Source of the DNA: Bacillus sp. PK3_68
Lineage (GTDB): Bacteria; Bacillota; Bacilli; Bacillales; Domibacillaceae
DNA: 64,000 nt
Reading direction: 5' to 3'
Assembly (NCBI RefSeq): GCF_003600835.1
Contig: NZ_NQYC01000001.1
Coordinates: 3,805,001 to 3,869,000, forward strand
This document shows, in pieces, positions 46,654-51,675 of the stretch; positions within the stretch are counted from its first letter, which is position 1, and every line of letters begins with the position of its first letter. The position numbers and the translations under genes were made by a program. The notes under the pieces are model-generated. The model saw only the letters and a program-made list of their open reading frames with translations, had not been told where the DNA came from and did not search any database.

Positions 46654-46875
46654 GCTCACAAAAAAGCTATTTCTAAAAAATTCAACCATTTTTTGAGGGA
46701 GTAAATCCGTTCTTCTTATTTATTGAATAGCGCAAAGCTGACGAAAAAACCTTATAAAAAAGAATAAAAGAGAGCCAGAAAAGTGTTTGCTAAGTATCTG
46801 ATACTCTATAGACGATTTAAGTTATACTCGAAACGTTGAGCGCTATATGATAGAATAAATTAACAAATAAGAAAC

Positions 46876-46993
46876 TGCCTATTCATTAGCGATTAAAAGA
46901 TGCCCTTTTTTAATTGAAACTAGTGAAAGAACTGGCTGTCTTAAATAACTGCTGTCAAAATTCGATAGCACTATTTAAGGCAGCCAATTTTTA
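46876..46993 (+). promoter_or_regulatory. Structured leader RNA with terminator, copy 1 (candidate riboswitch)
   Basis: Order: conserved TGCCTATTCATTAGC; stem P1 TTCATTAG (46882-46889) with CTAGTGAA (46920-46927); enclosed stem P2 ATTAAAA (46892-46898) with TTTTAAT (46908-46914); then a long terminator hairpin, GGCTGTCTTAAATA (46934-46947) with TATTTAAGGCAGCC (46972-46985) plus inner GCTGTC / GATAGC, followed by ATTTTTA. The hydrolase ribosome binding site starts right after. The leading TGCCT can pair with AGGCA in the 3' arm of the terminator, a possible antiterminator. Copy 2 at 47906 supports the fold with compensatory changes. Confidence 0.7.
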
Positions 46994-47011
46994 TTATAAG
47001 GAGTGAAAATC

Positions 47012-47866
47012 ATGAAGATGTATATGAAAGAGATTAATAACCGCAGGTTCCAATTGGCTGACTACCCTGGAAAAAAAGGGACGATCATTGCGATTCACGG
47101 CTTAACAGGCACGCACAAAAATATGCATTATTACGCTGAGTCGTTAAAAGGAGATTACCGGTTTATTGCACTTGATTTAAGAGGGAGAGGCAATAGTTCA
47201 GAGATGGATGAGGAGCCTTCGATCTTCAAGCATGCAGAAGATATTATAGATTTAATAAAGGAGCTTAAAATTGAAAATCCCATTTTAATCGGCCATTCGA
47301 TGGGTGCTTTTATCTCGACTATTGTGGCCAGCAAATTAAATTCTGTGAAAGGGATTATTTTGTTAGATGGCGCCGCTTTAATGTCTGATCATCAGCGCGA
47401 TATTGTGAAGCCGTCACTTGGAAGGTTAAGTAAGCAGTATGAGTCAGCGGAAAGGTATGTGCAAGAAACAAAAGGAATTTATGAGCGTTTAGGTGTAGAG
47501 TGGTCCCCGGTATTAGAAGAGGCGGTCCGGTACGAAATTCGGGAAGCGGAGGGCCATTGGGGACATAAATCGTGCGAAGCAAAAATTTTAACTGACTTTG
47601 AAAGTTTTTATTCCTATTCTCCTAAAGAGGTATGTGAAGCGATTCAATGCCCAGTTTTATTGGTATATGCCAAAGGGGAAATCGGACCATTTCCTCCTCT
47701 GTTTTACGAGGCAGATTACGATGAAACAAAAAAATATACAAAGAATATGAAGACAGTGATTTCAGACAGCAATCATTACACGATGGTATTTGAAAACAGA
47801 GAAGAAATCAATCAGATAGTAAAAGAATTTTTGCAGAATATTCATGAAATTAGTTGTAATATTTAG
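47012..47866 (+). CDS. Alpha/beta hydrolase, probable 3-oxoadipate enol-lactonase
   Basis: 284 residues from ATG 47012 (AAGGAG 8 bases upstream). Alpha/beta hydrolase fold: oxyanion HGLTGTHKN, nucleophile elbow LIGHSMGAF with Ser, and catalytic His in SDSNHYTMVF. The place between catA and the CoA-transferase genes fits PcaD/CatD, which opens the enol-lactone to beta-ketoadipate; a general esterase is the alternative. Expression is likely governed by the structured leader directly upstream. Confidence 0.8.
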   Translation: MKMYMKEINNRRFQLADYPGKKGTIIAIHGLTGTHKNMHYYAESLKGDYRFIALDLRGRGNSSEMDEEPSIFKHAEDIIDLIKELKIENPILIGHSMGAFISTIVASKLNSVKGIILLDGAALMSDHQRDIVKPSLGRLSKQYESAERYVQETKGIYERLGVEWSPVLEEAVRYEIREAEGHWGHKSCEAKILTDFESFYSYSPKEVCEAIQCPVLLVYAKGEIGPFPPLFYEADYDETKKYTKNMKTVISDSNHYTMVFENREEINQIVKEFLQNIHEISCNI

Positions 47867-47905
47867 AATTTAGTGTAAAATATAAATATGAATTAAATGA
47901 GCGAT

Positions 47906-48020
47906 TGCCTATTCATTAGCTATTAAAAATTACCCTTTTTAATACTACCTAATGAACAAATGGCTGTCTTAAACAACTGTTATCTCATGAGATAGCAATG
48001 TTTAAGGCAGCCATTTTTTT
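47906..48020 (+). promoter_or_regulatory. Structured leader RNA with terminator, copy 2 (candidate riboswitch)
   Basis: Same order as copy 1: TGCCTATTCATTAGC; P1 TTCATTAG (47912-47919) with CTAATGAA (47949-47956); P2 ATTAAAA (47922-47928) with TTTTAAT (47937-47943); terminator GGCTGTCTTAAACA (47962-47975) with TGTTTAAGGCAGCC (47999-48012) and inner GTTATC / GATAGC, then seven T residues. Relative to copy 1, a T-A pair becomes C-G in the terminator stem and a T-G pair becomes T-A in P1, so pairing rather than sequence is kept. It precedes the decarboxylase-family gene by about 57 bases. Confidence 0.7.
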
Positions 48021-48076
48021 GTGGCAATGGTGTAAAGCTTTCAATCGATCTTACCTTCACAATTTAATGGAATAGG

Positions 48077-48802
48077 ATGTTGAAAATGAGCAAAGGATTA
48101 GCATATTTCAAAGAAGTATACGATAAAGTGCCAGGCTGGGTACAAAAAATGCATGATTATAGCCCTGAAGCGCTTGAGCATTACACAAGTTTGCGCGGCG
48201 GCATTATGAATGATAGCGCCCTAACAAGAAAAGAAAAAGATATTCTGCTAGTCGGCATGAATGCAGCACGGCTGTATGAGCGGAGTATGGTCTACCACAC
48301 GAAAGGAGCGTTAGATGGCGGAGCGACTATACCGGAATTAGTAGAATACTTGTTGGTTTCCTATTTATATAACGGAGAGAAAGCATTAAAAACAGCTACC
48401 AAATCGTTAGAGTATGCCTTGTCATTAAAAGGAAAAGAGGTTCCTGATTTCGAAAACAATGCACAAACAGCGGAAGAACTGCTGAATCGGATGATTCAAT
48501 TAATGGAGGATGAAGACACACAGTTCGCGGAAGAAGTGTTGGCCTTGATTCGTTCGGGAGAAGAAGAGCAGTTAAAAGAAAAAATAGTAAGCGATGCAGT
48601 AGTTTCCCGGAGAATGAAGCATCTTTTAATATCAGGTATTTATATTACCGAACTAAAAGGAAAGGAAGCAGGGGAGTGGATGGAAGCGGCCAGAAAACAG
48701 GGAGCTTCCGAAGCGGAATTAGCCGATGTTGGATTGATTTGTTTATTAACAGCAGGCATTCCGGCCTGGTTTGAAGCCAGTGATTCATTAATTGAAAAAT
48801 AA
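48077..48802 (+). CDS. Carboxymuconolactone decarboxylase-family protein with two CMD repeats
   Basis: 241 residues. Two CMD-like units: the first contains YHTKGALDGGATIPELVEYLL (His-x3-Ala then Gly-Ala-x2-x-Glu), the second EAARKQGASEAELADVGL. No AhpD-type CXXC is present, so it is unlikely to be a peroxidase. PcaC removes CO2 from carboxymuconolactone in the protocatechuate branch; in a catechol branch it would not be required, so its reaction is uncertain. ATG 48077 or ATG 48086 may be the start. The second leader RNA lies upstream. Confidence 0.78.
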   Translation: MLKMSKGLAYFKEVYDKVPGWVQKMHDYSPEALEHYTSLRGGIMNDSALTRKEKDILLVGMNAARLYERSMVYHTKGALDGGATIPELVEYLLVSYLYNGEKALKTATKSLEYALSLKGKEVPDFENNAQTAEELLNRMIQLMEDEDTQFAEEVLALIRSGEEEQLKEKIVSDAVVSRRMKHLLISGIYITELKGKEAGEWMEAARKQGASEAELADVGLICLLTAGIPAWFEASDSLIEK

Positions 48803-48824
48803 AGGGGAAGAGGTGGTGAAAAGC

Positions 48825-49514
48825 ATGGCGAAAATCCATGAGGACATCAAGCAAGCTTTGTCTTGTGTACAGTCTGGCCACACGCTTATGGTCGGCGGAT
48901 TTGGTTTAATCGGAGCGCCTCTAACATTAATTGACGGACTGGCTGAAAGAGACGTATCCAATTTGACGATCATTAGCAACAACTTAGGGGAAGTCGGCCG
49001 GGGGTTGGGGATTCTCCTTAGACAAAACAAAATCAGGAAAGCGATCGGCTCTTATTTTACAAGCAACCGGGAAGTGGGCGACTATTATCAAAAAGGAGAA
49101 ATAGAGTTGCAGCTGTTGCCACAGGGGACGTTATCCGAGTCCATGCGAGCGGGCGGAGCAGGAATTGGCGGGTACTATACGAAAACTGGTGTTGGAACCG
49201 AATTAGCTAAAGGAAAGGAAGAACGGGAGATTAACGGAGTGAAGTATATTTTTGAACCGGCCATTCGGGCAGATGTGGCATTAATCAGAGCACATAAAGC
49301 AGACACGCTTGGAAATCTTGTTTACTACAAGACAGCTCGTAATTTCAATCCGTTAATGGCCACAGCAGCCGATATCGTTATCGCCGAAGTAGATGAAATT
49401 GTTGAACCAGGCGAACTGTCACCGGAAGAAATTGTAACGCCTCATTTATTCGTCGATGGAATCGTGAAGGCACAGAAAATATTGACGAAAGCCGGGGTGG
49501 TCAGTTGTGGCTGA
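48825..49514 (+). CDS. 3-oxoacid CoA-transferase subunit A (PcaI/ScoA type)
   Basis: 229 residues from ATG 48825, after AGAGGTGGTGA. Family I CoA-transferase alpha subunit: VGGFGLIGAPLTLIDGL near the start, NNLGEVGRG and GLLRQNKI-like region, and GGAGIGGYYTKTGVGTE. Together with the next gene it should activate beta-ketoadipate with CoA from succinyl-CoA, or acetoacetate if ScoAB. Position between enol-lactonase-like and CatB genes favours the beta-ketoadipate role. It overlaps the subunit B start by 8 bases. Confidence 0.88.
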   Translation: MAKIHEDIKQALSCVQSGHTLMVGGFGLIGAPLTLIDGLAERDVSNLTIISNNLGEVGRGLGILLRQNKIRKAIGSYFTSNREVGDYYQKGEIELQLLPQGTLSESMRAGGAGIGGYYTKTGVGTELAKGKEEREINGVKYIFEPAIRADVALIRAHKADTLGNLVYYKTARNFNPLMATAADIVIAEVDEIVEPGELSPEEIVTPHLFVDGIVKAQKILTKAGVVSCG

Positions 49515-50186
49515 AAAACATACTATTCAGGAAGTGATCGCTGAACGAGCCGCCAGAGAATTAACAGGTCCTTGTATTGTTAATCTGGGGATCGGAATTC
49601 CAACATTAGTAGCCAAGTATATTGATGATAAAGATGTTTATTTTCATACGGAGAACGGCCTGCTTGGTGTAACGGATGTAGAAGAAGATGAGATCGATCC
49701 GAACCGGGTGAATGCAGGTAAATTGCCAGTTGGTGAAACGATCGGTGCCTCATTTTTCAACAGTGCAGATTCTTTTGCTATGATTCGCGGGGTCATGTTG
49801 ATGTCGCCATCCTTGGTGTATTGCAAGTGGATCAAAAAGGTATTATTGCTAACTGGGCTGTGCCGGGGAAGAACATTATGGGAGTAGGCGGCGCGATGGA
49901 TTTACTTGTAGGAGCAAAGAAAGTAATTGTCACAACGACACATACAACAAAAGACGGAAAAAGCAAACTGTTAAAGGCGTGTACGTTCCCAATTACTTCA
50001 ACAAGAAGTATAGATATGATCATTACCGAGCTGGCTGTTTTTGAAGTAGCTGACGGCAAACTAAAGTTAATCGAGTTAATGCCGGGAGCGACAATAGAGA
50101 TGGTACGAGAAAAAACAGAAGCAGAATTTATAGAGCAGAGGATTGATGATAATGAAGATTCATTCGCTAAATATATACGTAGTTGA
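49507..50186 (+). pseudogene. 3-oxoacid CoA-transferase subunit B (PcaJ/ScoB type), frameshifted
   Basis: Starts at GTG 49507. The first part contains the catalytic Glu in HTENGLLGV and runs to SADSFAMIRG, then shifts at the G4 run 49789-49792. One more G restores GGHVDVAILGVLQVDQKG and the C-terminal part to 50186, a 226-residue subunit of normal length with VPGKNIMGVGGAMDLLVGAKK. It partners with subunit A. As read, the enzyme would be inactive and the pathway blocked at CoA activation. This is the fourth break of the same kind in the island and its flanks. Confidence 0.88.
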
Positions 50187-51276
50187 CCTGCCGACCATTC
50201 GTCCTCATCATTTAGCGATGCATACGATTGTCACACAAACCATTGTATTGGCGTGTATGAAGAGTGAGGATGGCATAGAAGGATGGGCGGAAGTAGCGAC
50301 GATTGGTGGCACGTCTTATTCGGAGGAAAGTCCGGAAGCCATTAAGTTTAACATTGAAAAATATATTAAGCCGCTCATTATTGGGGAGAGTGCGGGAAAC
50401 TTTGAGGCATTGTCTTATAAAATCGGTACGTATGTGAAAGGAAATTACTATGCAAAGGCGCTCATTGAAGCAGCAATGGTTGATTTAACTGCTAAAACAA
50501 GAAACATTCCTGCCTACGAATTATTTGGCGGGCAATGCCACGCTTCATTACCTGTCGCCTGGACACTGGCCAGTGGTGATACAGCAAGAGACATTGAAGA
50601 GGCGCAGCGTTGTCTGGCAGAAAGAAAGCATAATATTTTTAAATTAAAAATTGGAAAGGGGGATCCAAAAACGAATGTGGCTCATGTGATTAAGATCAAA
50701 GAAGCGATTGGGGAGTCCGGTAGTGTCCGGGTTGATGTGAACCAGGCGTGGGATGAAGTGACCTCTTTGTATTGTATTGAAGCACTGGAAGATGGCGGCG
50801 TGGACCTCATCGAACAGCCACTCGTCCGTTGGAACAATGAAGGCATGGCGAAGCTTTCGGCTCGTTTCAAAGTGCCGATTATGGCCGATGAATCGGTTGG
50901 CACGATTCAAGAAGCATATCAAATGGCTAAGTGCAGGGCAGCGAACGTATTTGCTTTGAAAGTTGCCAAAGCCGGCGGTTTAACAGCGGTGAAAAAGGTG
51001 GCCGCTATTGCGGAAGCGTCTGGAATACCGTTATATGGCGGAACGATGATCGAATCCTCGCTCGGAACGGCCATTTGCGCGCAGCTCTATTCCACTATTT
51101 CAGAAATGACGTTTGGCACAGAACTATTTGGTCCGCTGCTATTTAAAGATAATGTGACGGTTAACGAAATTGAATATGAAAACTTTGAAGTAAAAGTGCC
51201 GAACGGGCCAGGGTTTGGGATGACAATCGATAAAGAAAAAGTAAAACATTATTCAAGAGAAGTGTATATGGTATAA
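50152..51276 (+). CDS. catB: Muconate cycloisomerase
   Basis: 374 residues from ATG 50152, overlapping the CoA-transferase B gene by 35 bases (ATG 50146 and TTG 50143 are in frame). Enolase superfamily: KLKIGKGDP with the catalytic KxK, RVDVNQAWDE, LIEQPL, MADESV, second lysine in FALKVAKAGG, and the CatB-like LYGGTMIESSLGT and GTELFGPLL. Converts cis,cis-muconate to muconolactone. The match to Pseudomonas CatB in the C-terminal half is strong. It confirms the catechol ortho branch for the intradiol dioxygenases. Confidence 0.92.
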   Translation: MKIHSLNIYVVDLPTIRPHHLAMHTIVTQTIVLACMKSEDGIEGWAEVATIGGTSYSEESPEAIKFNIEKYIKPLIIGESAGNFEALSYKIGTYVKGNYYAKALIEAAMVDLTAKTRNIPAYELFGGQCHASLPVAWTLASGDTARDIEEAQRCLAERKHNIFKLKIGKGDPKTNVAHVIKIKEAIGESGSVRVDVNQAWDEVTSLYCIEALEDGGVDLIEQPLVRWNNEGMAKLSARFKVPIMADESVGTIQEAYQMAKCRAANVFALKVAKAGGLTAVKKVAAIAEASGIPLYGGTMIESSLGTAICAQLYSTISEMTFGTELFGPLLFKDNVTVNEIEYENFEVKVPNGPGFGMTIDKEKVKHYSREVYMV

Positions 51277-51304: not shown

Positions 51305-51351
51305 CATGGTGAATGCCACATAGACATGGGATCTTGAAAGGATGTAGTTGT

Positions 51352-51675
51352 ATGAGAATGACAAGTGTACTGATTACCGCTTATGCAAAAGCACCGCAAA
51401 ATACAAGCATGTATGAAAATTATAAATACGCGGGAATCGTGCTTGAAATTCATAAAGAAAGTCATATTGTCCTCAATGCCGAATTTACCTTCTTAACGAA
51501 CCTTGCTCAGGATTACTTTAAGAGAATGATTGTTGGTTATGACTTTAGCAAAGATCTTAAACCGCTGATCGAAGAGATCACGGAAGATTTTCTGGCGCCG
51601 TCCCAGCAGGCGGTAATCGTAGCGTTAAAGGTGGCGCATCAGCGGTATAAAGACAGTTTGGAAGCGAGAAAATAA
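51352..51675 (+). CDS. DUF3870-like protein
   Basis: 107 residues from ATG 51352 (AAAGGA upstream). The pattern AYAKAPQNT, YAGIVLEIHKESHIVLNAEFT, LAQDYFKRMIVGYDF and QQAVIVALKVAHQRY fits DUF3870, a small family of unknown function often beside catabolic genes. It directly follows catB, the place where CatC (muconolactone isomerase) usually stands, and is of similar size, but shows no evident CatC sequence similarity. A role as a CatC replacement is speculation from position. Confidence 0.75.
   Translation: MRMTSVLITAYAKAPQNTSMYENYKYAGIVLEIHKESHIVLNAEFTFLTNLAQDYFKRMIVGYDFSKDLKPLIEEITEDFLAPSQQAVIVALKVAHQRYKDSLEARK

Follow-up and report, generated by a model that had tools for sequence, protein, structure and literature searches.

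Leader RNAs and the Control of Aromatic Catabolism

Regulation of the beta-ketoadipate pathway is a classic example of control by proteins, and PcaR, which responds to beta-ketoadipate, is one of a group of such regulators that includes CatR and BenM. To our knowledge, no RNA sensor has been described for this pathway. Leader RNAs that control metabolic genes by transcription termination take two forms that are close to the locus presented here. In the first, the terminating ON riboswitches for preQ1 and purines in the Bacillaceae, a compact fold in a short 5' leader and a terminator are mutually exclusive. In the second, a small hairpin before the terminator is the site of action of a protein, as in the LicT/SacY RAT, PyrR, and HutP leaders.

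The window (the whole 64,000-nucleotide stretch of Bacillus sp. PK3_68 DNA that was analysed) contains two related leaders. In the reading that we favour, and that we hold to be somewhat better than evenly probable, each leader is a cis-acting RNA that decides transcription into genes of the beta-ketoadipate pathway, acting as a terminator-based ON switch and perhaps as a riboswitch.

Two Leaders in a Gene Cluster for Aromatic Compounds

The first-pass annotation of this DNA described two copies of a structured RNA, and these are indeed present on the forward strand, where fold and alignment place leader a at 46875-46993, ahead of an alpha/beta hydrolase gene, and leader b at 47905-48020, ahead of a carboxymuconolactone-decarboxylase-like gene. 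The sequence said to be shared, TGCCTATTCATTAGC, occurs exactly at 46876 and at 47906, and the predicted fold of both copies agrees with the succession of stems P1 and P2 and a long terminator. The architecture consists of a 5' UGCCUA, an 8-bp P1, and an inner A-U-rich P2 with a CC immediately 5' of its U run in both copies; a short linker then joins these to the long hairpin of the terminator, which has a U tract. In leader a, the P1 arms (46882-46889 and 46920-46927), which are placed by covariation, enclose the P2 hairpin (46892-46914, with arms at 46892-46900 and 46906-46914), which is placed by fold and covariation, and the intrinsic terminator with its U tract follows at 46933-46992. The corresponding elements of leader b are the P1 arms at 47912-47919 and 47949-47956, the P2 hairpin at 47922-47943 (arms 47922-47929 and 47936-47943), and the terminator and U tract at 47961-48020. 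Fold, covariation, and the energetics of the nascent and full-length RNA all bear on the two terminators, in which a stable hairpin with covarying arms is followed by a U run, as in intrinsic termination. The folds have stability z scores of -7.8 and -7.9, and none of 200 dinucleotide shuffles of either copy is as stable.

The differences between the copies that had been read as preserving pairing are real: AATA/TATT versus AACA/TGTT in the terminator stem, CTAGTG versus CTAATG in P1, and a G-U in one copy versus an A-U in the other in the inner helix, P2. The terminator had also been said to run into the leader of the next gene; the long terminator is there, but by eye the U tract of copy a stops just before the AAGGAG of that gene.

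Upstream of leader a, a consensus scan gives a candidate sigma-A promoter at 46828-46856 (TCGAAA-17-TAGAAT, forward strand), which is a weak match, and upstream of leader b another at 47854-47881 (TTGTAA-16-TAAAAT, forward strand). Among the 34 leaders aligned below, 29 have a TGTAAAAT-like box 25-35 nt upstream, and the best sigma-A scores have a mean of 10.0 versus 9.1 in shuffled upstream regions, a modest difference. These promoter-like boxes, modest evidence as they are, suggest that transcription probably starts separately for each leader.

The gene order around the leaders is that of an XylR_N/V4R/PucR regulator, an HpaB-type monooxygenase, a RibF-like FAD synthetase, an intradiol dioxygenase, leader a, the alpha/beta hydrolase, leader b, the carboxymuconolactone-decarboxylase-family (CMD) protein, CoA-transferase A, muconate cycloisomerase, a DUF3870 protein, and a flavin reductase. 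On the forward strand, the hydrolase (47012-47866) is enol-lactonase-like, with a match to Pfam PF00561 and one to PcaD (TIGR02427) that is below the cut-off only; the CMD protein (48077-48802) matches PF02627 and, below the cut-off, PcaC (TIGR02425). The 3-oxoacid CoA-transferase subunit A of the PcaI/ScoA family (48822-49514; TIGR02429) and the muconate cycloisomerase (50143-51276; TIGR02534) are above their cut-offs. Since the hydrolase, decarboxylase, monooxygenase, dioxygenase, thiolase, and transporter all fall below the cut-offs of the specific NCBIfam models, the exact substrates of these six proteins are to be read as putative. From the gene set, the cluster would take phenol or related aromatics to catechol and then, by ortho cleavage, to beta-ketoadipate.

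Three further features of the cluster deserve mention. CoA-transferase subunit B is split over two frames (49507-49887 and 49821-50186, together 49507-50186), by either a frameshift or a sequencing error, and is in a single open frame in the Bacillus badius relative (L026 2138-2818). An FAD-synthetase-domain protein (PF06574, 45211-45768) lies between the monooxygenase and dioxygenase genes, and similar proteins occur in the clusters of B. badius and of genome G022. The DUF3870 protein (51313-51675) after the muconate cycloisomerase is present in 6 of 10 regions compared; that it could supply the missing muconolactone-isomerase step is a guess only.

Related Leaders in Other Genomes

In a search of the 4.8-Mb genome, the two copies found each other at 79% identity (E 5e-20) and no third copy was found, the next match having an E value of 0.043. 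A first model, built from four sequences, was then run on 397 genomes of the order, a match being called strong at E below 1e-10. Strong leaders were found in 9 of the 397, and any match at E<=0.01 in 25, of which 16 had weak matches only, of 38.3 bits or less. The one of these weak matches that was inspected, in G124, was rejected as a leader because the 5' motif is absent. With an aptamer-only model, 20 of the 397 genomes had a match at E<=0.01: the same nine strong genomes, with best matches of at least 70 bits, and 11 others whose best matches did not exceed 37 bits. Among 398 genomes of the class, the aptamer-only model gave four with E<=0.01 and was strong in the genome of the window only. 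From the weak matches of these two scans, six were inspected, and the 37-bit match in L118 was taken as chance, since it is inside an open reading frame.

A pattern scan of GTDB contigs gave 11 stretches, with hosts in Domibacillus, Peribacillus, Bacillus badius, Cytobacillus, Fictibacillus, Neobacillus, Bacillus sp. SD075, and Bacillus sp. BA3. A second model found leaders in 10/43, 3/34, 1/2, and 1/16 genomes of the families of G312, G318, G030, and G374, respectively; leaders were also found in two of four genomes of the genus of the window and in 3 of 24 of its family. The final alignment contains 34 distinct full leaders from 20 genomes (counted by handle and record), leaving out B. badius copy a, the G124 match, and duplicates of the same places.

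B. badius copy a (L060 5362-5474, reverse strand), which precedes a hydrolase gene, has kept the terminator and the P1 3' arm while its 5' half has diverged; it may be read as a natural loss of the proposed sensor. In Fictibacillus enclensis, a terminator hairpin (GGCTATTTGAA...TTCAAATAGCC; L101 12330-12398) lies ahead of a second MFS gene; the match at L101 12311 was rejected as a leader because this terminator is without the 5' domain.

These searches bear on the alternative, raised by the first-pass annotation itself, that the element is a mobile or dispersed repeat. Two near copies 1 kb apart could be seen in that way. A repeat would not, however, be confined to two copies in its genome or, in other genomes, to one to three copies adjoining the same pathway; at the level tested, the alternative is refuted, and we give it a vanishingly small probability. 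The copy number, together with the covariation and the link to pathway genes described below, makes the leader a cis-regulatory RNA rather than a mobile repeat.

Covariation of P1, P2, and the Terminator

Across the 34 leaders, P1, P2, and the terminator covary beyond shuffles, which bears out what the first-pass annotation had proposed from two copies. Standard pairs are formed in 98.9% of the 952 pair cells (34 rows), and when the partner is slid by 1-3 columns this falls to 31-56%. Twelve of the 28 pairs have changed on both sides (three in P1, two in P2, and seven in the terminator), and such changed pairs are found in distant clades, namely G030, G431, and Fictibacillus. The covariation score is 0.264 versus 0.155 in shuffles, and none of 500 shuffles reaches any of the five measures used, which are uncorrected for relatedness. 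At the level of comparative analysis, then, the P1/P2 hairpin and the terminator are shown to be kept as RNA structures, and the covarying structure in a 5' leader is of the kind that defines a riboswitch candidate. In P1 and the 5' UGCCUAUUCAUUA, conservation extends beyond the pairing to the sequence itself. Neither the length nor the sequence of the linker beside the proposed outer helix P0 (see below) is constant. The putative sensor is small, with a high A-U content, and the CC of its loop is AC in 2 of the 34.

Could the conserved part instead be a DNA operator for a transcription factor, with the inverted repeats acting as DNA half-sites? The strong conservation of primary sequence just downstream of a promoter-like box would fit an operator, as would the presence of a cre-like site after some leaders. 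However, one P1 pair is U-A in 16 leaders, U-G in 14, C-G in two, and unpaired in two, while another is U-A in 31 and U-G in three. Such change by way of G-U pairs is unexpected for symmetric half-sites and favours an RNA over a DNA inverted repeat. Moreover, the P1 arms are around 30 bp apart and enclose another helix. An operator is thus very improbable, and a structure conserved in the RNA is the reading that we retain.

The cre-like sites themselves are of the TGTAANCGCTTTA type. P. cavernae, F. enclensis, and N. rhizophilus each have a site with one mismatch 7-9 nt beyond the leader, a fourth such site lies farther away, and sites with two mismatches lie 6-7 nt after six other leaders; shuffles give 0.4 sites of one mismatch or fewer per 34 leaders. 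In the window, a 13-base look-alike is seen by eye just 3' of the terminator of leader b, at 48031-48043. Control by CcpA on top of the RNA leader is possible.

The Link to Beta-Ketoadipate and Catechol Genes

The first-pass annotation held that the genes behind the leaders act on lactone or beta-ketoadipate-type compounds, and a search of the 1.5 kb behind each of the 34 leaders with a panel of eight pathway proteins supports this. In 33 of the 34, the next recognised gene is of the beta-ketoadipate/catechol branch or encodes an aromatic-acid-type transporter; in the remaining leader, G030_m, which ends near a contig edge, the downstream gene is unreadable. Five kinds of gene come first: the hydrolase (13 leaders), a PF04199 cyclase (10), CMD (4), CoA-transferase A (3), and an MFS transporter (3), the last being of the aromatic-acid type by TIGR00895, below the cut-off. 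The distance from the leader to the first panel match is 18-342 nt in these 33 leaders, and it is within 180 nt in 32 of them, at different gene boundaries. Such a consistent association with related genes is that expected of a riboswitch, and the comparison of genomes shows the leader to be tied to the beta-ketoadipate pathway. In P. cavernae, counted among the ten with the cyclase first, the match is a short cyclase-like remnant (77 aa, 45%; L066 6390-6700, reverse strand) between leader and CMD, which suggests decay of the first gene behind the leader.

The controlled units differ in size. In Domibacillus aminovorans and G318, the unit is made up of the two CoA-transferase subunits, A and B, and a thiolase, and no further panel gene adjoins it; in Fictibacillus fluitans, it is made up of the two subunits, and the list of open reading frames contains no thiolase; and in Bacillus sp. 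SD075, one leader copy is ahead of a lone transporter. The common denominator is the use of beta-ketoadipate or its precursors.

Leaders and muconate cycloisomerase also occur together. Eight of the nine strong leader genomes are among the 20 of 397 order genomes with a cycloisomerase at E<=1e-90 (hypergeometric p 8e-11, not corrected for relatedness); counted by genus, four of the five leader genera are among 15 of 135 (p 5e-4). Eight of the nine best-scoring cycloisomerases are in leader genomes, and the ninth is in G022, a member of the family of the window that has the operon and an XylR_N/PucR regulator and in which no leader was found at the thresholds used.

A Proposed Three-Pair Switch at the Base of the Terminator

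How might such a leader choose between termination and read-through? A pairing of the 5' UGCCU with AGGCA of the terminator had been suggested as a simple antiterminator, and this pairing was rejected: it is complete in 16 leaders and incomplete in 18 of the 34, and none of its measures is clearly above shuffles, 92-309 of 500 of which reach them. That it pairs better than slid registers (84% of cells versus 21-51%) is attributed to the resemblance of UGCCU to the terminator's own 5' arm.

A better candidate is a shorter pairing. GCC (columns 3-5 of the alignment) and GGC (columns 63-65) are invariant in 34/34 and could form an outer helix, P0, that closes P1/P2; they lie at 46877-46879 and 46934-46936 in leader a and at 47907-47909 and 47962-47964 in leader b. 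In a scan for alternative helices in which every pair had to be present in at least 85% of rows, GCC:GGC is, among the best 60 listed, the only helix complete in 34/34 and the only one with three G-C pairs; the listed helices of 4-6 bp have on average about one G-C pair at most and are complete in 25-32 of the 34 rows. Because the terminator begins with the same GGC, P0 and the complete terminator would be mutually exclusive. In the nascent RNA, before the 3' arm of the terminator is made, the predicted probability of P0 is 0.85-0.99 (median 0.98), while in the full-length RNA the terminator form is predicted to be favoured by 4.5-10.9 kcal/mol (median 7.4). When only the seven 5' bases are shuffled, the median pairing of GGC falls from 0.98 to 0.05, 13% of the shuffles still being at 0.9 or above. 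In a constrained fold with P0 formed, the shortened hairpin would stop a few bases before reaching the U tract, and a hairpin ending short of the U tract should favour read-through.

Since P0 has only three base pairs and never varies, its support comes from conservation and energetics and none of it from covariation. Within the terminator, conservation is slightly higher on the 5' side than on the 3' side (summed entropy 4.9 versus 6.6 bits), and the first G of the terminator is invariant while its 3' partner is U in 7 of the 34. A second partner for the 5' arm would lead to such a bias, but this is weak evidence because the arms of P1 lean likewise (2.2 versus 3.3 bits).

The same region invites a simpler explanation, in which the hairpin is a plain terminator or insulator that separates transcription units and senses nothing. 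The terminators are very stable, nothing but the terminator and the P1 3' arm is left of B. badius copy a, and a similar-looking terminator stands alone in F. enclensis, all of which would suit an insulator. Yet an insulator would need neither the invariant GCC nor P1 and P2, nor the covariation of P1, and it would not be expected so close to the next pathway gene, at different gene boundaries and mostly behind a promoter-like box. We consider this explanation improbable.

If, then, the leaders are ON switches, the following scheme may be proposed. As the RNA emerges, the 5' GCC would pair with the GGC at the start of the terminator to form P0 outside P1/P2. Without a signal, the terminator would take back the GGC and complete its base next to the U tract, and transcription would end. 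A pathway signal bound to P0/P1/P2 would hold the GGC, so that the hairpin would stay short of the U tract and the polymerase would read on. Such an ON switch would suit an inducible catabolic operon.

Protein or Small Molecule?

An important question is what the signal would be. One possibility is that the leader is an attenuator to which an RNA-binding protein, rather than a small molecule, binds so as to prevent or promote termination. The conservation of P1 and the 5' UGCCUAUUCAUUA in sequence would also mark a protein site, such sites typically have a small hairpin before a terminator, and a small or unlinked protein would fit too. However, when ORFs of at least 90 aa were compared across 10 regions, no family of regulators occurred in all of them: the regulators among the Pfam-scanned neighbours are of the PucR/XylR_N (in the window and also in the leaderless G022), MerR, sigma-54, IclR, and ArsR types, with one ROK protein. 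No regulator of the RAT, PyrR, or HutP type was found among the neighbours scanned (genes of the window and ten neighbours elsewhere). The one RNA-binding protein seen, an S4-domain pseudouridine synthase, is beside the Domibacillus leader and has no counterpart in the other nine regions. Control by a protein is rather unlikely in our view, and the differing regulators nearby lean towards a ligand-sensing RNA.

For an RNA that senses a ligand, a small molecule of the pathway is the likeliest signal. Beta-ketoadipate is a first guess and no more, which comes from the smallest regulated enzyme unit, a PcaI-type CoA-transferase (with thiolase in two of three cases), and from the lone aromatic-acid-type transporter. 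The fuller proposal remains tentative, and we put it a little short of even: a new class of riboswitch that would sense an intermediate of aromatic breakdown (beta-ketoadipate, muconate, or a lactone) and would switch on the catechol ortho-cleavage genes in Bacillaceae by a three-pair strand exchange at the terminator base.

Comparison with Known Systems

The statement of the first-pass annotation that no Rfam class has this layout agrees with a search of the window with the Rfam 15 families, including the known riboswitches and the T-box, in which no match reached its gathering score. Nine sub-threshold matches (E up to 10) fall in 46700-48100, the best being RF02844 RefA9 with 26.3 bits against a threshold of 49 (E 0.18), and the six matches (E up to 1) from 13 related loci are all sub-threshold. 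A full-text literature search, with supplements and closed-access papers outside its scope, found no report of this leader RNA. Two surveys of intergenic regions describe orphan riboswitch candidates. The main text of one, PMC11109978, has no mention of muconolactone, CoA transferase, Peribacillus, or Fictibacillus; the searched text of the other, PMC8632094, has none of muconolactone, lactone, or beta-ketoadipate, and its single mention of a CoA-transferase concerns the odc1 uORF element.

If real, an RNA sensor for the beta-ketoadipate pathway would bring riboswitches a new type of ligand and provide a ready-made part for biosensors in lignin and phenol conversion. With the ligand set aside, this is still a well-defined orphan RNA, with 34 leaders, a clear candidate expression platform, and a narrow set of candidate ligands, in hosts that include named species in public records (Peribacillus, Fictibacillus, Bacillus badius, and others).

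We call the leader an undescribed class within a known kind, that of the terminator-controlling leader RNAs. It is like the preQ1 and purine riboswitches in its short 5' position, compact fold, predicted mutually exclusive terminator, and metabolic genes, and unlike them in having no Rfam match at gathering, beta-ketoadipate genes downstream, and a candidate ligand only. With the RAT, PyrR, and HutP leaders, it shares the small hairpin before the terminator; it differs from them in that no such regulator is among the neighbours scanned and in that the conserved hairpin overlaps the terminator through GGC only. It resembles the orphan riboswitch candidates, as far as these are described in the consulted parts of PMC11109978 and PMC8632094, in its covarying leader, coherent gene association, and candidate expression platform. 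Finally, it serves the same pathway as PcaR, CatR, and BenM, but as an RNA leader, near which, in some genomes, protein regulators are also encoded.
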